Source: Spirochaetia bacterium
GTDB lineage: Bacteria; Spirochaetota; Spirochaetia; Treponematales; Treponemataceae
Length of the DNA: 55,735 nucleotides
Direction of reading: 5' to 3'
NCBI GenBank assembly: GCA_022773305.1
Contig: JALFAW010000088.1
Location: 1 to 55,735, forward strand
The number at the start of each line of letters is the position of its first letter. The first letter of the stretch is position 1. The position numbers and the translations under genes are program-made. Below the pieces are notes generated by a model. It was not told the DNA's origin and made no database searches. It worked only from the letters and a program-made list of their open reading frames with translations. Below are positions 6,722-55,735 of this stretch, piece by piece.

Positions 6722-6861
6722 AGGTTCAATTTCGAGTATTTGATTTACAAACCGTGGCAAGGATTGTAAGGGCTGGCGAAGCCAGTTCCGAAGCGGAGCG
6801 AAGGAATGAAGCGATAGCGGAACCCTGAAAAGCCTGTTTTTTGCGAAGCAAAAAGCCACCC
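6722..6861 (+). repeat. Dispersed modular hairpin repeat, copy R1 (between fliE and fliF)
   Basis: AGGTTCAATTTCGAGTATTTGATTTACAAACCGTGGCAAGGATTG...GCCTGTTTTTTGCGAAGCAAAAAGCCACCC; contains CTGGC-GAA-GCCAG and TTTTTTGC-GAA-GCAAAAA; left end identical to copy at 55568. Confidence 0.9.
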
Positions 6862-14726: not shown

Positions 14727-15647
14727 TTACCTTTTTTTTTCACCATTTGCACCGTGAGGATGGGCTTTATTGTAAATATCAATAAGTTTTTCTGTTGTCA
14801 CATGAGTATAACGCTGTGTTGTACTTATAGAACTGTGACCGAGCATTTCCTGAACAATTCTCACGTCTGCTCCGTTACCAATCATTGTTGTCGCAAAAGT
14901 ATGACGGAAAGCATGCGGATTTACATGATGATTTGTTCCTTCTTTACCAGAATATTTTGTGATTATAAACCTTACTCCATTAACAGACAACGGCAATCCG
15001 CGTTGATTAATAAAAAGCTTGTCAGATGGATTTTCAATTCCCTTATCTAAAATCATTTTTTTTCTGTCTTCCAAATAAACTTTCAATGCGTTTCTAGATT
15101 CAGATGCAAAATATACGCGCCGCTGTTTATTTCCCTTTCCAGTAACTATTGCCGAATGATAATCATCCAGAAAATCACTCAGTTTCAGATTTGTAATTTC
15201 ACTGATTCGACAACCAGAAGAATAAAGCATTGTCATAATTGCGTAATCTCTATTTTTCCACAAAAGTTCATTTTCTATCGGCTGATGACATAAATCATCA
15301 ACTTCAGCCTGCGTCATAAAGTTCGGCATGCGTTTAGGATTTTTTACCGTTTTTAGTTCAAGTGCTGGATTTTTTTGTATGTATTGATAGCGTAATCCAA
15401 ATGAAAAAAGTGTTCTTACCGCTGAAATAAATCTGTTTATGCTTGCAGCTGCTTTTTTTTGCCTGGAAAGTTGTCCAATGCATAAAAGCAAGTTCTCTTT
15501 TGTGACTGATGAAATTTCTATTTCTGGTGATAAAAAATGTTGCAGTAATGACAAATCATTTTTATATCCAATCACTGTGTTTTCAGAAAGACCTCTTACA
15601 GCCGAAAGATAATTTAAAAACTCCTCTACAAAATCCTTTAACTTCAT
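14727..15647 (-). CDS. xerC: Tyrosine recombinase XerC-like
   Basis: SGCRISEITNLKLSD, HAFRHTFATTMIGNGADVRIVQEMLGHSSISTTQRYTHV catalytic R-HxxR-Y pattern. Confidence 0.88.
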   Translation of the reverse strand: MKLKDFVEEFLNYLSAVRGLSENTVIGYKNDLSLLQHFLSPEIEISSVTKENLLLCIGQLSRQKKAAASINRFISAVRTLFSFGLRYQYIQKNPALELKTVKNPKRMPNFMTQAEVDDLCHQPIENELLWKNRDYAIMTMLYSSGCRISEITNLKLSDFLDDYHSAIVTGKGNKQRRVYFASESRNALKVYLEDRKKMILDKGIENPSDKLFINQRGLPLSVNGVRFIITKYSGKEGTNHHVNPHAFRHTFATTMIGNGADVRIVQEMLGHSSISTTQRYTHVTTEKLIDIYNKAHPHGANGEKKR

Positions 15648-21401: not shown

Positions 21402-22301
21402 CTATAAATCCTGCATCTTTGCAGATTCAAAATATTTTTCATGAGCTTTTTCAAGCTGGTCGTCTGTCACATGTGTGTAAATTGTAGTTGTACTCAAATC
21501 ACTATGTCCCAAAAGTTCCTGCACAGAACGCAAGTCTGCACCACCAGACAACAAATGCGTTGCAAACGAATGACGAAGAGTGTGCACTTTTGCATCTACT
21601 CCAGACAATGCTTCCAGTTCCTTAAACCTTTTCCAAACACCTTTTCTTGAAATCGGTTCCCCTTTATAATTCACAAAAAGCTGTGGAACATTTCTTCCTT
21701 TTGTCAGAGAAGGGCGCACTTCTTCCAAATAAATTTTGATTTTTTCAAATGCACGTTCACCAAAAGGAACAATTCTCTCTTTATCACCTTTTCCACGCAC
21801 AAGAATCAACTTTTCTTCCAGATGAACGTTTGCAATCAAAAGACTGCACGCTTCGCTAATCCTTAAACCACAAGAATAAATCAGTTCAAACAGTGCATCA
21901 TCCCGAATACCAGAAGCAGTCTTTGTATCTATTACACTTAAAAGATTATCAACTTGCTCTACAGAAAGCACTTTAGGAATTTTTTTTGAAGCTCTTGGTT
22001 TTTCAAGCAGTAATGTAATGTTTTCTTCCCAAAAACTTTTTCGCACAAGAAAATCACCAAAAGCTCGAAGAGCTGAAATATCTTTTGCAATTGTCAGTTC
22101 ACTCACACCCTCTTCTTGTCTTTTTATCAAAAAAAGAATTAAATCTTGAGTAGAAACAGCACGTAACTTAATTTTTTCTTTAACCAGAAAATTCAAAAAC
22201 TCTTCTACAGAAATTTTATAAGTCATTGCAGTTTGTTCTGAATCTCTTTTGACAAGAATCAAATCTGAATAAAACTGATTCAAAATTTCAAGGACAGTCA
22301 T
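21402..22301 (-). CDS. xerD: Tyrosine recombinase XerD-like
   Basis: YSCGLRISEACSL, HTLRHSFATHLLSGGADLRSVQELLGHSDLSTTTIYTHV. Confidence 0.9.
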   Translation of the reverse strand: MTVLEILNQFYSDLILVKRDSEQTAMTYKISVEEFLNFLVKEKIKLRAVSTQDLILFLIKRQEEGVSELTIAKDISALRAFGDFLVRKSFWEENITLLLEKPRASKKIPKVLSVEQVDNLLSVIDTKTASGIRDDALFELIYSCGLRISEACSLLIANVHLEEKLILVRGKGDKERIVPFGERAFEKIKIYLEEVRPSLTKGRNVPQLFVNYKGEPISRKGVWKRFKELEALSGVDAKVHTLRHSFATHLLSGGADLRSVQELLGHSDLSTTTIYTHVTDDQLEKAHEKYFESAKMQDL

Positions 22302-23939: not shown

Positions 23940-24083
23940 GGGTGGCTTTTTGCTTCGCAAAAAACAGGCTATCCGGGGTTTCGCTATCGCTCCAGCCGCT
24001 TCCCTCGCTCCGCTCAGTCCAGTGGCCGCCTTCGGCGCCCCTACTATCCTTGCCACGGTTTAAAACCAAAAACTCGAAATAAA
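23940..24083 (-). repeat. Dispersed modular hairpin repeat, copy R2 (between ftsA and ftsZ)
   Basis: GGGTGGCTTTTTGCTTCGCAAAAAACAGGC...CGCC-TTC-GGCG...CCTTGCCACGGTTT; reverse orientation relative to R1. Confidence 0.9.
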
Positions 24084-30457: not shown

Positions 30458-30600
30458 GAGTGGCTTTTTGCTTCACAAAAATCAGGCTTTGCGCCCTTCG
30501 CTAACGCTCATCCGCTTCCCTCGCTACGCTCAGTCCAGTGGACTGCTTCGCAGGGGCTACAATCCTTGCCACGGTTTAAAATTAAAAAACTTGAAATAAA
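30458..30600 (-). repeat. Dispersed modular hairpin repeat, copy R3 (between mraZ and rsmH)
   Basis: GAGTGGCTTTTTGCTTCACAAAAATCAGGC...CTGCTTCGCAGGGGCTACAATCCTTGCCACGGTTTAAA; nearly identical interior to copy at 47641. Confidence 0.9.
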
Positions 30601-31915: not shown

Positions 31916-31924
31916 TTTTAAAAC

Positions 31925-31963
31925 CCTTGCCACGGTTTGTAAATCAAATACTCGAAATTGAAC
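31925..31963 (-). repeat. Solo conserved end of the modular hairpin repeat, copy R6
   Basis: CCTTGCCACGGTTTGTAAATCAAATACTCGAAATTGAAC = reverse complement of the left ends of R1 and R5; no modules follow. Confidence 0.8.
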
Positions 31964-38224: not shown

Positions 38225-38683
38225 ATGAATGAATTTATTATTAATTATGGATCATGGATTTGGATTGGAATTCTTGTTATCAGTTGTTTTATAGAAGCTT
38301 TCACCTTCGGACTTACTACTATTTGGGCAGCAATAGCAGCTATTCCATTAATTTTTATTGCACGAACAGGATTAGCTTTTCAGTGGCAAATTCTCATATT
38401 TTTACTGATTACTTTAGTCTTAATCATATTTACTAGACCTTTTGCCATCAAAAAGTTAAAAACTGGAAAATCAAAAACTAATGCTGAAACAATTATCGGG
38501 CAGGAAGTTTTGATTACAAAAACAATCAGTAATTTTGAAAAGGGGGAAGCTAAGGCAAAAAATGGTGTTATTTGGACTGCTATATCTAAGGATAATATTA
38601 TATTGAAAAAAGGAACAGTTTGTTCTGTCGTTTCTATTGAAGGAAACACAATTTGTGTAGAAGAAAAAAAAGAGGTAAATTAA
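38225..38683 (+). CDS. NfeD-family membrane protein
   Basis: TM-rich N-terminus with C-terminal OB-like domain (GKSKTNAETIIGQEVLITKTISN), overlapped by SPFH gene. Confidence 0.8.
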   Translation: MNEFIINYGSWIWIGILVISCFIEAFTFGLTTIWAAIAAIPLIFIARTGLAFQWQILIFLLITLVLIIFTRPFAIKKLKTGKSKTNAETIIGQEVLITKTISNFEKGEAKAKNGVIWTAISKDNIILKKGTVCSVVSIEGNTICVEEKKEVN

Positions 38684-39567
38684 TGATTTATATTTTTATT
38701 GCAATTTTTATTATTATTTTGATTATGATTATTGTGAACATTCGCGTTGTTTCACAATCACAAGCATTTATTATTGAAAGATTGGGCGGTTATCATTCTA
38801 CGTGGAATGTTGGAATTCATGTAAAGATGCCGTTTATCGATAAGATTATTAACAAAATGTCACTAAAGGAAAAAGTTTTTGATTTTCCGCCTCAGCCTGT
38901 CATCACAAAAGATAACGTAACTATGATGATTGACACTGTTGTTTATTTTCAAATTACAGATCCAAAACTTTACACTTATGGCGTGGAAAAACCTATAAAT
39001 GCACTTGAAAACCTTTCTGCAACCACTTTGCGAAATATTATCGGTGAACTTGAACTTGATGAATCACTAACTAGTAGAGATGTGATTAACACAAAAATGC
39101 GTTCAATTCTAGATGAAGCAACAGACCCATGGGGCATAAAAGTGAACCGTGTTGAAGTAAAGAATATTGAACCTCCACAAGCAATCAGGGAAGCTATGGA
39201 AAAACAGATGAAAGCAGAACGTGAACGTCGTGAACAGATTTTGATTGCTGAAGGACATAAACAATCTGCTATTTTGGAAGCTGAAGGAAAAAAACAGGCT
39301 TTAATTCTTGAAGCAGAAGCTGAAAAAGAAGCTGCCATTCAAAAAGCAAAAGGCGAAGCACAAGCCATTCTTGAAGTTCAACAGGCAAAAGCTGAAGGTT
39401 TAAAAATGATAAAAGAAGCTGGCATGGACGATAAAGTGATTAAACTTAGGAGTCTTGAAGCATTTGAAGTAGCTGCAAATGGTCAGGCAACAAAAATAAT
39501 TATTCCGTCAGAGATTCAAAACATGGCTGGAGTTGTAGAATCAATCACTCAAGTAATTAAAAAATAA
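38683..39567 (+). CDS. SPFH/band-7 protein (QmcA/stomatin-like)
   Basis: VVSQSQAFIIERLGGYHSTWNVGIHVKMPFID, SPFH core and AEA-rich coiled coil; ATG overlaps nfeD stop (TAATG). Confidence 0.9.
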   Translation: MIYIFIAIFIIILIMIIVNIRVVSQSQAFIIERLGGYHSTWNVGIHVKMPFIDKIINKMSLKEKVFDFPPQPVITKDNVTMMIDTVVYFQITDPKLYTYGVEKPINALENLSATTLRNIIGELELDESLTSRDVINTKMRSILDEATDPWGIKVNRVEVKNIEPPQAIREAMEKQMKAERERREQILIAEGHKQSAILEAEGKKQALILEAEAEKEAAIQKAKGEAQAILEVQQAKAEGLKMIKEAGMDDKVIKLRSLEAFEVAANGQATKIIIPSEIQNMAGVVESITQVIKK

Positions 39568-49200: not shown

Positions 49201-49433
49201 AAAAGTCAAGAAGATTGTTTCAACAATCGACTGACTTTTTTACGCTGTTCCGTAATGTAATGAGGAACAGCAGTTTAATGTAAGATAAAGCCGCGCTATT
49301 TTAGCGGTTTTATCACACTCCTATTAAAACACCGCGTTAGCGGCGAGCCAGGATGGCGAGTATCCAAGTTTATGAAGTGCAGAGCACGAAATAAACTTGG
49401 TGATAAAAATTACATGGACGTAATTTTTATCAC
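49201..49433. repeat. Array of six consecutive hairpins in one intergenic region
   Basis: Stems at 49201-49239, 49244-49271, 49284-49314, 49332-49343, 49364-49400, 49400-49433 (see finding). Confidence 0.8.
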
Positions 49434-49438
49434 ACCTC

Positions 49439-50833
49439 CTATAATTTTATGGATTTGAGCTGTCCTGCTCCATATCCTTTAAATGTAAGATAAATTGCAT
49501 TAATTCCGTCTGGAATTGAAACCTGAGCGGAATTTTCTTCCCAAAAGTTTGAATATATAACTTTGATTTTTCCAAGAATTTCTCCATCCCATTTTGTGCG
49601 AACTTCGAACTCTCCATCAAAATAACCGCGATTTACTATTGTAAGTTTTTTGATGTTTTTGCAATCAAAATATTTAAATCCTATGGTTGTATTATTTTGA
49701 ATATTCACAATGTAGCCGGTTTCCTGGTCACCATCGCGTCCATCCTGTGTGATTCTTGCAAACTTTTCTCCGCCAACATATTTACTTGGCATTTGAGTGT
49801 TAAAAATGTTGCAGGCAATGCAGGCTGGATATTCACCAACAGCACGTAAAGGTCCGCCGTTTAATCCACAGGAAGTAATTTCTACCTGGTCTATAGTTCC
49901 GTCTTCTGCAATTTTGATTTTTTCGGCACAGCCCTGACGACTGTACCAGGTTCCGTTTGTATGACGATGATAGAAAATGTAATACTCTCCGTTGATTTTT
50001 TCAAATCCGCCATGATTATTTGCCCCATAAGCAGCTGGCATATCTGAAGGTTTGTAAGATGAAATTCCAACATCACAATTACTCACAATCACACCGCGGT
50101 ATTGAAAATCTTTGACAGGATTTTTACTTGTGGCATAACAAAGTTCGTGCATTGCGCTGGAAGAATATACAAAATAATAAGTATCACCAACTTTTCTGAT
50201 AGAAGGAGCTTCGAAAAATTCGTGGTTTTCAAAAGATGTATTTTTACCGTAACAGTCTCCTGGAACTATGACATTGTAGTCTTCTTCGATGGTAAGCATA
50301 TCTGCTCCTAAAACAGTTGCCATCGCTCCAAGTCTGTCTTGCATTTGATGTCCACAAAATCCTGTGTAAAGGTAAGTTTTATTTCCTTCTGTGAGAACTG
50401 CAGGATCAAACTGAGGCATATTTCCCTGTCTTTCTCCAAGTTTTGTTCCGTCTTTGTAATGAACGTAACCGTAAAATTCATATTTTCCAGCCGGAGTGTC
50501 GCAAACAGCAACTGAAACAAAACTTGCTTTATCTAAAACATAATAAAGATAATATCTTCCGTCAGGACCTTGCGTTACATCAGGAGCATACAAAACCATT
50601 CTGCCGTCTTGAGCAGGATCCTGGTCTTTTTTATAGATTACCCCTTCATATTTCCAGTCAGTTAAATCTGTAACATTCGCTGAATAACAGACATAGTCTC
50701 CTAGACAAAAAACTGCACCATTAAACATATCGTGTGAACCAAAAACATAAACTCTGTCTCCAAAAACATGAGGTTCACCATCAGGTACATATTCCCAAAA
50801 TGGCATATATGGATTAAAACACTGTTTTTTCAT
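49439..50833 (-). CDS. Glycoside hydrolase family 43-type (arabinofuranosidase/xylosidase-like)
   Basis: NPYMPFWEYVPDGEPHVFGDRVYVFGSHDMF, VLYAPDVTQGPDGRYYLYYV, HHGGFEKINGEYYIFYHRHT-like five-bladed propeller pattern. Confidence 0.85.
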   Translation of the reverse strand: MKKQCFNPYMPFWEYVPDGEPHVFGDRVYVFGSHDMFNGAVFCLGDYVCYSANVTDLTDWKYEGVIYKKDQDPAQDGRMVLYAPDVTQGPDGRYYLYYVLDKASFVSVAVCDTPAGKYEFYGYVHYKDGTKLGERQGNMPQFDPAVLTEGNKTYLYTGFCGHQMQDRLGAMATVLGADMLTIEEDYNVIVPGDCYGKNTSFENHEFFEAPSIRKVGDTYYFVYSSSAMHELCYATSKNPVKDFQYRGVIVSNCDVGISSYKPSDMPAAYGANNHGGFEKINGEYYIFYHRHTNGTWYSRQGCAEKIKIAEDGTIDQVEITSCGLNGGPLRAVGEYPACIACNIFNTQMPSKYVGGEKFARITQDGRDGDQETGYIVNIQNNTTIGFKYFDCKNIKKLTIVNRGYFDGEFEVRTKWDGEILGKIKVIYSNFWEENSAQVSIPDGINAIYLTFKGYGAGQLKSIKL

Positions 50834-50880
50834 CTGTCATCTATCTCCTGAAAAAAATTGTTTCATTATAGTTTTATTGA

Positions 50881-51852
50881 TTACTGAAAAACTCTAAGCA
50901 TGAATTGATAGAATCCGCCACGAATTGCAACTGAATTGTGATCGGCACTCATAATTTCAAACCAAAGATGCTCTACACCATTATCATTGAAAATTTTATG
51001 ATAAGATTTTGGGAATTGACCAACAGTTCCATCGTTTGTGCCACAACAAATCATAAAAAGTTTTGGAAGAGGATTTGATCCAACAAATTTCATATCCTCT
51101 ACAGCAAGCTGACCTTCGTGACTCATAGCCCAGTCTTTTGCAGGAACAAGTCCTGGAGCTGGAGCAATGGCACCAATATAACCAAAAAGGTCAGAACGTT
51201 GTAAACCGATAAAAATTGATTCACGTCCGCCCATTGAAAAACCACAAGCAGCGGTATTCTCACGACCAGTTAATACTGAATAGTTTTTTTCAATGTATGG
51301 CATGATGTCATTTACAAGTTCATTGATAAAATTGTCATAAGGAAGAACGGCTTCGCTTGAAAAACCAGGTTTTAAATTCGGGTCGCTTGAAGCATACATA
51401 TGACCAAAAACCATGATGACTTCTTTTGCAAGTCCATCAGCAGCAAGATTTGCCGTAATCTGGCGGAATTTATTATTGTCATCATTAATCATACAATTTT
51501 CGTCGCCAAAAATTCCATGTTGAAAATAGATGACTGGATATTTTTTTGTGCCGTCATAACTTGCTGGTAAAAGAATGGAAAAAGCACGTTCCATATTACA
51601 AGTATTTGAATGATATTTCACATGTTCAACTTTGCCAAGTTTTACATCGCTTCTCTGTTCAGAAACTTCTTTTGGGCAGTCAAAAGCAATTTCATTTCTG
51701 ATCTGATATTTTTCCAAATACTCCATTTTTTTTGTTTCCTCATTTTGCTGATTTGATTGATTGTTTAATTGAATTTCTTCTTTTTTGCTAACACAACTAA
51801 TGATAAGCGGAAAACTCAATAAAACACATGCTAATTTTACTGTTGATTTCAT
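50881..51852 (-). CDS. CE1-like esterase lipoprotein (feruloyl/acetyl-xylan esterase type)
   Basis: Lipobox MKSTVKLACVLLSFPLIISC; GRENTAACGFSMGGRESIFIGL nucleophile elbow, YPVIYFQHGIFGDE. Confidence 0.8.
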   Translation of the reverse strand: MKSTVKLACVLLSFPLIISCVSKKEEIQLNNQSNQQNEETKKMEYLEKYQIRNEIAFDCPKEVSEQRSDVKLGKVEHVKYHSNTCNMERAFSILLPASYDGTKKYPVIYFQHGIFGDENCMINDDNNKFRQITANLAADGLAKEVIMVFGHMYASSDPNLKPGFSSEAVLPYDNFINELVNDIMPYIEKNYSVLTGRENTAACGFSMGGRESIFIGLQRSDLFGYIGAIAPAPGLVPAKDWAMSHEGQLAVEDMKFVGSNPLPKLFMICCGTNDGTVGQFPKSYHKIFNDNGVEHLWFEIMSADHNSVAIRGGFYQFMLRVFQ

Positions 51853-52041
51853 AATTAACAACTCCATATTTATGACAACACAAGGCTTACGAAAATTCCA
51901 CTTTATATAAAAACAAGAAGTGGTAATCCATGAGAAATTGTAAGAATATTTATAGAAGAAAACAATAAGTGAAAACCACCAATTTTGCATGAATCATGCA
52001 CGAGGGAGTGAAATTTTTAATGATTTTAAAAGTTAGGTCTG

Positions 52042-52265
52042 TCCCTAGGGCAAACGCATTATAAAATGATTAGTTGTAATATCTGGCTCCCGGTCGTAAT
52101 TCACAGGTCAAAAACGCGCAATAATGCGCTAGACGTTTTTTGGGGTATAGAAACTATTATAATGCCGCTCTCGCGGCAGCCCCAAAAAAAGTCTTTTTGC
52201 CCTGTGTCTCACTCCCTCGTGCCAACTTTTATGAAAATATTTTTTATAATGCGTTTGCCCTGGGA
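52042..52265. mobile_element. MITE-like non-coding element with about 20-bp TIRs
   Basis: AGGGCAAACGCATTATAAAA ... TTTTATAATGCGTTTGCCCT; nested stems GCCGC-TCTC-GCGGC and CAAAAACG..CGTTTTTTG. Confidence 0.7.
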
Positions 52266-52333: not shown

Positions 52334-52439
52334 ATTTCAAAACTGTAACCTTTTTTACTCACTTTTATATTTTTTTATTTCAAAAGTGTAACTATTTTTT
52401 ATTTCTTTAAAAAAAGATTTATTTCAAAACTGTAACTAT
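52334..52439 (+). repeat. Left iteron cluster (3 copies)
   Basis: ATTTCAAAA(C/G)TGTAAC(C/T) at 52334-52350, 52377-52395, 52421-52439. Confidence 0.9.
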
Positions 52440-52618
52440 ATTAAACAAAAATCAACATCACTGAAACGGCTCTTCTTTTCATTTTCCAGCGTTTATTATG
52501 TAAATCAATAAATTACTCAAAAAAGTAAAAAAATCCTCTCAAAACAAAGATTTGAACGTTTTTTTTAAATATTAATTTTGATTAAATCGTTTAATCTCTG
52601 TTTATCTGACATTTATTG

Positions 52619-52649
52619 GTTTAACTATTATATTATTTAATAGTTTAAC
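52619..52649. promoter_or_regulatory. Imperfect dyad upstream of parA, candidate operator/centromere
   Basis: GTTTAACTATTATATTATTTAATAGTTTAAC within an AT-rich tract with further GTTTAA(C/T) repeats. Confidence 0.45.
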
Positions 52650-52719
52650 TTATTATTACTTTTTGTTTAACATCTGTTTAATAACTAATAAATAATTAAA
52701 GTATTTACTAGCCATTAAC

Positions 52720-52748
52720 TTGACATTTTATGATTAAATGGTTAAATA
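52720..52748 (+). promoter_or_regulatory. Candidate promoter for parA operon
   Basis: TTGACA (52720-52725), 17-bp spacer, TAAATA (52743-52748). Confidence 0.4.
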
Positions 52749-52782
52749 TGTATTAAACCTAAAAACAATCAAGGAGGCAAAC

Positions 52783-53526
52783 GTGAAATCTTATGCATTT
52801 GCTTTGCAAAAAGGCGGAACTGGAAAAACAAGCATCAGTGTATCACTTGCTGTTGAACTTGCTTCAAAAGGAAAAAAAGTTGTATACATCGACTGCGATC
52901 CTCAGGGAAATTCCAGTTCATGGCTTTTAAACAGTTTTGAACATGAATTGGCTGATATACTTTATGAAAAAGCGCAGGTTTTAGAATGTGTTTATAAATC
53001 AGATGTTGAAAATCTTTATGTAATTCCAACTTTTGGTGTCGGAGGTGAACTAAAAGTCTGGGCAAAAAAAGAAACATATCCTTTTATTTTCCAAAAAAAC
53101 ATTCTCCCTCAGCTTCAAGAACATTTTGACTATTGTATTTTTGATACATCACCTGCTTTTGATGAATTTGAAAAATCAGTTTTTATTGGTTGTGATGAAG
53201 TAGTTCCAGTTTTGAAATTGGATGAATTTTCAAAAGACGGATGGGAAATTTTTACAAAAAATCTTTCTCAAATTGACAAACAATATGGTGTACGTCCTAA
53301 ATATAAAAAAATCATTTTAAATCAGCAGGATAAACGTCTTTCAAATCAAGCTGCATATCTTGAAGCATATAATTCATCTGAAACTTCATTTGAATTTATT
53401 GTAATTCCAAAAGACCCTGCATTTGAAAAAAGTCAAAGTGCGCACACAACTATTCAGGATAAAAGAGTTCGTGCAAAAAAAGAAACTCTAGAATCTATAT
53501 CAAATTTAGCACAGAGGTTAATGTAA
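52783..53526 (+). CDS. parA: ParA-family partition ATPase
   Basis: AFALQKGGTGKTSISVSLAVELASKGKKVVYIDCDPQGNSSSWL deviant Walker A; AAGGAGG upstream of GTG 52783 (listed ORF starts earlier at 52738). Confidence 0.9.
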   Translation: MKSYAFALQKGGTGKTSISVSLAVELASKGKKVVYIDCDPQGNSSSWLLNSFEHELADILYEKAQVLECVYKSDVENLYVIPTFGVGGELKVWAKKETYPFIFQKNILPQLQEHFDYCIFDTSPAFDEFEKSVFIGCDEVVPVLKLDEFSKDGWEIFTKNLSQIDKQYGVRPKYKKIILNQQDKRLSNQAAYLEAYNSSETSFEFIVIPKDPAFEKSQSAHTTIQDKRVRAKKETLESISNLAQRLM

Positions 53527-53882
53527 TGGCAGTACACGAAAAAAACTTATCATTTGCTGAAGAACAAAAGTTGAAAATTGCGGAAAGCGTAAAAAATACT
53601 ACAAGTCTATCTGAAAGTGTAATTCCGGAAAAGAAAGTTGAAGATAACTTGTCTTTCAAAACTGTAACTATTCAATCTTCTGTATCACAGAATTCCAGAA
53701 AAAAAGATGTATTGATTGGAATTCATGTTACAAAAGAAGAACAAACAGAGCTTCGTCAAATGTTTTGCTCAAATGGTTTTTCTCTTGCTACTGCATATAG
53801 AGCAGCAATGACTTATTTGAGACAAGATATTAGTGATGGAAAAGCAATAATTACAAACAATGGTGAAATCTTAAGAAAATAA
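53526..53882 (+). CDS. Small partition/plasmid-associated protein, RHH-like C-terminus
   Basis: ATG overlaps parA stop (TAATG); C-terminal IGIHVTKEEQTELRQMFCSNGFSLATAYRAAMTYLRQ; contains an iteron in its coding sequence. Confidence 0.7.
   Translation: MAVHEKNLSFAEEQKLKIAESVKNTTSLSESVIPEKKVEDNLSFKTVTIQSSVSQNSRKKDVLIGIHVTKEEQTELRQMFCSNGFSLATAYRAAMTYLRQDISDGKAIITNNGEILRK
53654..53670 (+). repeat. Iteron copy inside a CDS
   Basis: TTTCAAAACTGTAACTA exact match to the flanking iterons. Confidence 0.9.
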
Positions 53883-54044
53883 AAAAATCCTTACAAACTT
53901 AAAAATAATGGATATTTTGAAGAAGACGACATATTTCTCGATGGATATCGTTTCAAGCCCGTAGAACCCCTTTTTTGAGCATTTGAGAGGACTTTTTCTT
54001 ATTACCAGAATTTTCAAAAGTTTTTCCTCATAAAGGAGGGTATA

Positions 54045-55034
54045 GTGAAAAAAAACAAAAAAGACCAGAAAAATGAAATAATCTCAGCAGATAATTCTGA
54101 TGCAGAATTATTCAATTTTGATTATAAGCCTGATATAAAACAGTCATTAGCTTATTTGCCAGCTCTTTTTACAACAGCTTCTTTACCTTTCAGAAATGTA
54201 AATAAAACTGTATTTGTACGAAAAGGCACAAAAGGAATTACATTAAAACTTACATCGCCTTTTAATGTACCTTATGGACGTTATGGAAGATTACTTTTAA
54301 GTGTTTTAACTACACATGCAGTAATTAATAAAGGAAAAGGTTCTGGACCTGTGTATATGGAATATGCAAAACTTAGCGATTTATTAAAAGAATTACAATT
54401 ACCAAAAAGTAGAGGACCTGAAATCAAAGAACAACTTGAATGCTTTTCAAACGCAGCATTTTCTTTTACACAAAAGGTTACAGAATTGAAAGCGGGATAT
54501 CTTTTTGAAGATTTATATGATGGAAATTATCCAAAACAAGATATACAAGTAACAACACATACTACCGGAAATATTCGTTTCACAGAAGGAGTTCAATATA
54601 AAGAAGCTGATGATGGAAGTGGTGATAAAAAAAGTTTTGCTTTTAAAATAGTTTTATCACCAGAGTTTGCAGCATTTTGTCAATCTCACGCAGTTCCTAT
54701 AAATTATACAGTTTACAAAAATATATCTTCTCCAATTGCAAAAGATATTTATGCTTGGCTTGTGTACAGAAATAATTCAATAACAGAACCGTTGTTTATT
54801 CCAAGACATCATCTTGTTGAACAATTTAATCCTGTAGATGATGCAAAAAACGAAAATCAGGAGAATGTAAGTTATTTTAGAATAATCGAATATATTAAAG
54901 AAATAAAAGAAAAGCATTATCCTGAATTAAAGGTAAGTTTTGATAAAACAGGGGAGGGGATTACTCTTTATAAAAGTAAACCTCCTGTTCTAGAAAAAGA
55001 TACAAGATATGCATTAATAACAACTGATATTTAA
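54045..55034 (+). CDS. Plasmid-type replication initiator (RepA, 'plasmid encoded RepA' family-like)
   Basis: GTG start after AAAGGAGGG; PYGRYGRLLLSVLTTHAVINKGKGSGPVYMEYAKLSDLLKELQL and SPIAKDIYAWLVYRNN patterns; flanked by iterons. Confidence 0.8.
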   Translation: MKKNKKDQKNEIISADNSDAELFNFDYKPDIKQSLAYLPALFTTASLPFRNVNKTVFVRKGTKGITLKLTSPFNVPYGRYGRLLLSVLTTHAVINKGKGSGPVYMEYAKLSDLLKELQLPKSRGPEIKEQLECFSNAAFSFTQKVTELKAGYLFEDLYDGNYPKQDIQVTTHTTGNIRFTEGVQYKEADDGSGDKKSFAFKIVLSPEFAAFCQSHAVPINYTVYKNISSPIAKDIYAWLVYRNNSITEPLFIPRHHLVEQFNPVDDAKNENQENVSYFRIIEYIKEIKEKHYPELKVSFDKTGEGITLYKSKPPVLEKDTRYALITTDI

Positions 55035-55078
55035 ATCTTAGAAAAAAAATAGTTACACTTTTGAAAGATTTTATTCAG

Positions 55079-55087
55079 TTATCCACA
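55079..55087 (+). promoter_or_regulatory. DnaA box
   Basis: TTATCCACA. Confidence 0.7.
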
Positions 55088-55280
55088 TATCCACAATCTC
55101 TATTAATTGTTTAAATATATTAATTGTTAATTAATTGTTTTTATAGAAGATATTTCAAAACTGTAATTATTTATTTCAAAACTGTAACCATAGAAAAATT
55201 TATAAGGTTTCTAAATCTATAAATAACATAAAAATAGGTCCTGAAAAACAGCATTTCAAAAGTGTAACTAAAAAAGTACG

Positions 55281-55304
55281 TTATCCACAAGAAAATGTGG
55301 ATAA
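55281..55304. promoter_or_regulatory. Inverted pair of DnaA boxes
   Basis: TTATCCACA-AGAAAA-TGTGGATAA between two iterons. Confidence 0.75.
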
Positions 55305-55567
55305 CTATTTCAAAAGTGTAACTATTTTAAGAATAAATTTAAGAATAAAAAACTCATAATCTGAATTTCTATAATACTTTAGTTCAGAAAAATTTGAATA
55401 TGATTTCGAATATTGGGAATCATATCAGAAAAAATATAAAAATAATAAAAAGAAGATAATGTTATTTCAAAACTGTAACTAAAAAAAAGCAAACAAACAG
55501 ATTTCCATTTCAAAACTGTAACTATTTATGTTTATTAAAAAATATGTTTTATTTCAAAAGTGTAACT

Positions 55568-55735
55568 AGGTTCAATTTCGAGTATTTGATTTACAAACCG
55601 TGGCAAGGATTGTAAGGGCTGGCGAAGCCAGTTCCGAAGCGGAGCGAAGGAATGAAGGTAGCACGAAGTGCGTACGTAACCCTGAAAAGCGCGAGTTTGC
55701 AATGCAAACTCGGGACGAGAAATGCATAGCATTTC
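55568..55735 (+). repeat. Dispersed modular hairpin repeat, copy R5 (truncated by window end)
   Basis: Left end and first modules identical to R1, then different modules: GCAC-GAA-GTGC, CGAGTTTGC-AAT-GCAAACTCG, GAAATGC-ATA-GCATTTC. Confidence 0.9.

Follow-up and report, generated by a model that had tools for sequence, protein, structure and literature searches.

An intact iteron replicon of a treponeme RepA family, probably linked to core chromosomal genes through a MITE-borne assembly chimera

Overview

The window examined here, a stretch of 55,735 bases from a Spirochaetia bacterium, is the entire contig C91 of a 321-contig, 3.1-Mb assembly (G000). Its end, at 52.27–55.57 kb, holds an iteron replicon that is intact and belongs to a RepA_C-type family of treponemes; the link of this replicon to the esterase gene and the core genes before it is probably an assembly chimera formed through a 217-bp MITE. 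The original prediction, that a plasmid-type module is integrated beside ftsZ, topA and cheA, is thus very probably wrong at this locus: Target duplications and sister gene order point instead to the chimera near 52 kb that the same prediction had named as its own undoing. The more general idea that treponeme chromosomes carry such modules is supported by copies at fixed positions elsewhere, namely in the complete chromosome of Treponema ruminis Ru1, at the site of a second module of the same genome (contig C231), and at a site beside NfeD and SPFH genes.

The window and its chromosomal segment

The segment up to position 52045, with ftsZ, topA and cheA, is chromosomal, and to that extent the earlier reading of the window as main chromosome stands; the placement of the module on it does not, the joint between them being a many-copy MITE. 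The final gene of the continuous segment is a putative esterase gene (50881–51990, minus strand; PF00756), and positions 49344–52045 are 94% and 90% identical to the sister genomes G132 and G006, respectively. On the far side of the joint, the G+C content of the module is 27%, versus 34% for the chromosomal part. The right junction of the module is the contig end, which falls inside a second dispersed repeat (55569–55735), of which the genome has at least 40 copies. This repeat contains many short inverted repeats and often lies near gene ends and contig ends; partial copies occur at 6723–6811, 24030–24080, 30558–30597 and 31918–31963. The absence of any transposase or integrase, as first claimed for the window, needs qualification: Two tyrosine recombinase genes are present (14727–15647 and 21402–22301), but they are of Xer type, resemble housekeeping recombinases and lie far from the module. 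One of them adjoins genes that read as hslV/hslU. The genomes compared throughout are mostly metagenome assemblies, and the roles of neighboring genes given without a family search rest on reading of their sequences.

Genes of the module

In the last 3.3 kb of the window, three intact genes follow one another: parA, a gene for a ribbon-helix-helix (RHH) protein, and repA. The first of these, parA (52783–53526, plus strand), encodes a Walker-type partition ATPase of 247 aa that matches PF13614 (2.6e-30) and the ParA-like family phrog_164 (1.8e-37). Its GTG start at 52783 follows a strong Shine–Dalgarno sequence, AAGGAGG (52771–52777), and it is overlapped at TAATG (53524–53528) by the small gene behind it (53526–53882, plus strand), all as originally described. 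The middle protein found no family in a Pfam search, and Foldseek with the monomer returned no significant match; its family profile nevertheless matched the solved RHH proteins 2kel (7e-8) and ParG (1p94; 0.0097), upholding its assignment as a ParG-like RHH partner. It forms a single protein family common to all 66 of the 66 complete modules collected. The third gene, repA (54045–55034, plus strand), encodes an iteron-type replication initiator whose match to RepA_C (PF04796, 5.8e-11) lies above the cut-off, as the proposed HMM check had anticipated. Sequence comparison found no match for RepA among solved structures, while its AlphaFold model (mean pLDDT 79) gives matches to the Vibrio chromosome II initiator RctB (1.7e-7) and to the F-plasmid protein RepE54. 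A phage origin of the module was considered and rejected, RepA having no match in phage records and a PHROG search giving no family for either RepA or the RHH protein.

The partition genes conform in their sequence layout to type Ib, a small ParA followed by an RHH protein. With a family initiator, a modeled RepE-like fold, and iterons and DnaA boxes beside rep, the module has the makeup of an iteron-type replicon. The complete plasmid-type replication and partition module first proposed is borne out by its genes, its iterons and its family matches.

Iterons, DnaA boxes and the putative origin

The iterons are far in excess of chance, with 13 matches at three or fewer mismatches against 0.53 expected and at most three in 100 shuffles. 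Twelve had been counted before, and their distribution holds: Three lie left of parA at a spacing of 43–44 bp (52334–52438, plus strand), one lies in the RHH gene (53653–53670, plus strand), and eight lie right of repA, of which one is inverted (55050–55067). The count itself falls short by one, a 13th iteron lying on the minus strand inside parA (53201–53218). A 90% copy of the left array occurs on contig C54 (6400–6499). Excision between the flanking iteron arrays was considered and rejected, the arrays sharing only about 84% over 62 bp.

The earlier account also lacked three perfect DnaA boxes, TTATCCACA, at 55079, 55281 and 55296, in the stretch of the eight right-hand iterons. In a set of 70 family modules, perfect boxes number 58 within 600 bp 3′ of repA (in 33 modules) and zero within 600 bp 5′ of parA, with two in 156 kb of genes and 0.41 in shuffled sequence. 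Because perfect boxes cluster there across the family, the putative oriV of the window is placed 3′ of repA, in a stretch of 20% G+C that holds the eight iterons and three boxes (55050–55568).

If the module works as iteron plasmids do, the 3′ iterons beside the DnaA boxes would be occupied by RepA monomers, and RepA together with DnaA would open the origin in the 20% G+C stretch. At the three iterons before parA, RepA would act to repress or adjust the operon. ParA and its ParG-like partner would segregate the DNA, as in ParA/ParG systems, and the region upstream of parA is the candidate centromere for the RHH protein.

The joint between esterase and module

The 217-bp repeat at the joint (52046–52262) has the hallmarks of a MITE: terminal inverted repeats (TAGGGCAAACGC/GCGTTTGCCCTG), target duplication, many copies and short length. 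Its copies are near-identical, at least 40 in G000, many of them exactly at contig ends. The same MITE family occurs in the sister genomes G132 and G006. On contigs C294 and C18, copies are bounded by perfect 10-bp target duplications. The copy in the window has none: It is flanked by GGTCTGTCCC on the esterase side and by GGATAACAAA on the module side, and each of these flanks has its partner elsewhere in the assembly.

Beyond the equivalent of position 52045, both sister genomes continue with TCAGGTCTGTCCCC or TTAGGTCTGTCCCC and then a GH1 gene; neither MITE nor module separates esterase and GH1 there. The GH1 gene of G000 itself lies on contig C190. At the end of this contig, half a MITE is followed by GGTCTGTCCCCCAGCAAACC, and here, beside the GH1 gene and the half MITE, is the GGTCTGTCCC partner that is missing from C91. 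From the sister gene order and the end of C190 together it follows that the partner of the esterase flank is the GH1 flank, and the actual order on this side would be esterase–MITE–GH1. On the module side, GGATAACAAA recurs on contig C54, where it forms the 3′ terminus of a GNAT gene; behind this gene come TAGGGCAAA, a remnant consisting of the first MITE bases, and then the module edge at 90% identity. Since GGATAACAAA and the same module edge are found together there, the partner of the module flank is the GNAT gene, and the actual left neighbor of the module would be a GNAT acetyltransferase gene, as on C54. The 10% difference between the two module edges shows C54 to be a different molecule, either an allele or a further copy. 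An SNF2 gene on C54 was tried as a chromosomal anchor and rejected, having no match in either sister genome.

A second suspect crossing lies on C190 itself. There, the other GH1 flank of a MITE copy (G000:C190:8441-8656), CTGATATTTA, pairs with TTGATATTTA on contig C101, and this C190–C101 pairing is the gene order of the sister genome G132. The crossing on C190 is therefore a probable second misjoin.

Chimera, recombination or free plasmid

The joint in the window is read as a chimera because its flanks belong to two different MITE insertions, the target duplication is absent, and the sister gene order differs. As a junction of an integrated replicon, it both lacks a duplication and contradicts two sister species. 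Recombination between two MITE copies is probably the lesser explanation, and it would take the following form: A plasmid bearing the module and a MITE integrated at esterase–MITE–GH1 by one homologous MITE–MITE crossover, so that the joint is real. This is unlikely. It would leave mismatched target duplications at both junctions, and several observations speak for it. The MITE in C91 has two private bases, at positions 53 and 175, which are 122 bp apart and make the 141-mer path through it unique among the contigs compared; such bases count against a chimera, and a real MITE–MITE recombination would produce them too. The second junction that the crossover predicts, GNAT–MITE–GH1, fits the open end of C190, and modules do exist in chromosomes at other loci. 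Traversed MITE copies without a duplication are also not rare in the sister assemblies (3 of 10 in G132 and 4 of 5 in G006), which counts against the chimera. In G000 itself, the duplication is missing from 6 of 8 traversed copies; one of these is on C190, and its flanks, too, run counter to the gene order of the sisters. Given these six copies and the fault on C190, systematic misjoining is the least-effort account, as it covers all of them at once.

The chimera is compatible with a further proposal, that this strain has a free plasmid with the module as its replicon, which is conceivable but somewhat against the odds. The same RepA family runs the plasmids pTRESU01 (165 kb), pTB1 (85 kb) and pkT3, and the low G+C of the module relative to the chromosomal part would suit such an origin. 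Against this, no mobilization gene or cargo is linked to the module, the neighboring contig C54 carries the dispersed repeats of this genome, and most relatives stand alone among ordinary genes on long contigs. End overlaps indicative of circularity were absent from the short module contigs, save for 32 bp in L181.

The RepA family across the genus

Of 147 genomes examined from the genus, 46 carry this RepA family, with up to three copies each. Nearly all relatives are free of stops, and only a few are truncated or interrupted (G112:C37, G002:C64). G000 itself holds two more complete modules, on C231 and C170, and C136 carries a fourth ParA together with an RHH gene; the iteron of the C231 module is a different one, AAATATAAACTGGAGCA. 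The plasmids pTRESU01, pTB1 and pkT3 share the family, and the RepA tree shows the initiators of pTRESU01 and pkT3 nested amid copies that other genomes carry. In the flanks read beside modules, by open reading frames and a few family scans, no integrase, transfer or mobilization gene was seen. The C170 module (L075) sits amid defense-like genes, among them an HsdR-type restriction subunit, an ADP-ribosylglycohydrolase, a WYL regulator and LeoA/LeoBC-like dynamins. A RepA subgroup (L087, L170, L171, L179, L184 and L194) lacks an adjacent parA–RHH pair and has, 3′ of repA, genes of about 300 aa and about 260 aa, the latter ParA-like in L087. A treponeme-type module filed under an Acinetobacter MAG (L165, CAMORE010000115.1) is probably a binning error.

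Three settings place modules of the family in chromosomes. In T. ruminis Ru1, one module lies at 1.368 Mb of the complete 2.9-Mb chromosome, and the genome paper reports no plasmids (PMC8049484). An integron cassette array was considered for T. ruminis and rejected, the gene orientations being mixed. At the C231 site, the TetR/DUF2130 side is the same in three assemblies (G000, G006 and G132); the nifS-like side extends beyond the second dispersed repeat and is less secure. The third setting is that of a RepA clade of seven assemblies at one chromosomal site, flanked on one side by a conserved gene of 467 aa and NUDIX and on the other by NfeD, SPFH and P83/100, with each pair of assemblies sharing part of these flanking genes, not always all. 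The window has its own NfeD–SPFH pair, at 38225–39567, from which the module is absent. The NfeD/SPFH spot is possibly an insertion hot spot. In the group of L143, L186 and L099, the modules found upstream of NfeD or SPFH genes come from different species and represent more than one RepA lineage.

Selection on these copies appears to be strong. Median pairwise dN/dS at the NfeD site is about 0.04 for repA and about 0.05 for parA, and values at the C231 site range from 0.014 to 0.15, with dS near saturation in several pairs, including those of the NfeD site. The C231 copy keeps its origin parts, iterons and DnaA boxes alike, while the seven-assembly NfeD lineage keeps iterons and has no perfect DnaA box. 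Together, the sequences support the view that treponeme chromosomes hold related modules under strong purifying selection. A search of an open-access library turned up no account of chromosomal RepA/ParA modules in treponemes.

Relation to known replicons

The modeled initiator fold resembles those of iteron plasmids, whose winged-helix initiators include F RepE and R6K π, and of RctB from Vibrio cholerae, and these systems likewise have iterons, DnaA boxes and an AT-rich region beside rep. The treponeme family differs from them in having no sequence match to the solved structures and in the many copies that stand alone amid chromosomal genes. Its partition genes resemble the type Ib ParA/ParG pair of TP228 in having an RHH gene that overlaps the small parA before it, but they are linked in order with repA, and the region upstream of parA holds iterons instead of tested centromere sites. 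Also close are pTRESU01 of T. succinifaciens and pTB1 of T. bryantii, which share the RepA family and, in pTRESU01, the same three-gene order; unlike the module, both are large plasmids with many other genes, and pTRESU01 has a second ParA/ParB pair.

Two systems offer parallels for plasmid-type replication within a chromosome. As two reports describe it, SGI1 is an integrated element able to replicate in plasmid-like fashion (PMC7433901, PMC7826253); it shares with the treponeme modules an integrated state with plasmid-type replication genes, but SGI1 is a mobilizable island, whereas neither integrase nor transfer genes were seen next to the treponeme modules. Single-chromosome V. cholerae with two origins likewise has a plasmid-type origin within the main chromosome (PMC6284228). 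There, a whole second chromosome is fused, whereas a treponeme genome carries up to three or four modules, each of about 3–4 kb.

Roles of the chromosomal copies

A chromosomal origin of this kind could be silent, could be a second start site, or could be a decoy that titrates against related plasmids. Purifying selection suggests that the module proteins have some function. That the copies are merely decaying plasmid remnants is very improbable: A few are indeed truncated or interrupted, yet nearly all remain open, and at fixed chromosomal sites dN/dS lies well below 1, which contradicts decay. Service as secondary replication origins is rather improbable as well. The iterons, DnaA boxes and purifying selection kept in copies such as that on C231 speak for it, as does the precedent of fused V. 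cholerae chromosomes; the absence of perfect DnaA boxes from the NfeD lineage speaks against it, and GC skew around the T. ruminis copy was uninformative, giving no clear origin signature. A broader proposal, somewhat less doubtful though still unlikely, is that these are domesticated plasmid replicons selected for a host function, as extra origins or as decoys conferring incompatibility immunity. The decoy version fits both the coexistence of copies with different iterons and the NfeD site without DnaA boxes.

Implications

Many-copy MITEs can fake a plasmid–chromosome fusion in metagenome assemblies, and 10-bp target duplications expose such joints. The wider family matters more: Complete replication and partition modules stand alone in the chromosomes of gut and rumen treponemes, and some of them, under purifying selection, occupy the same site in several species. 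They raise the question of what use a second replicon is to a chromosome that already has an origin of its own.
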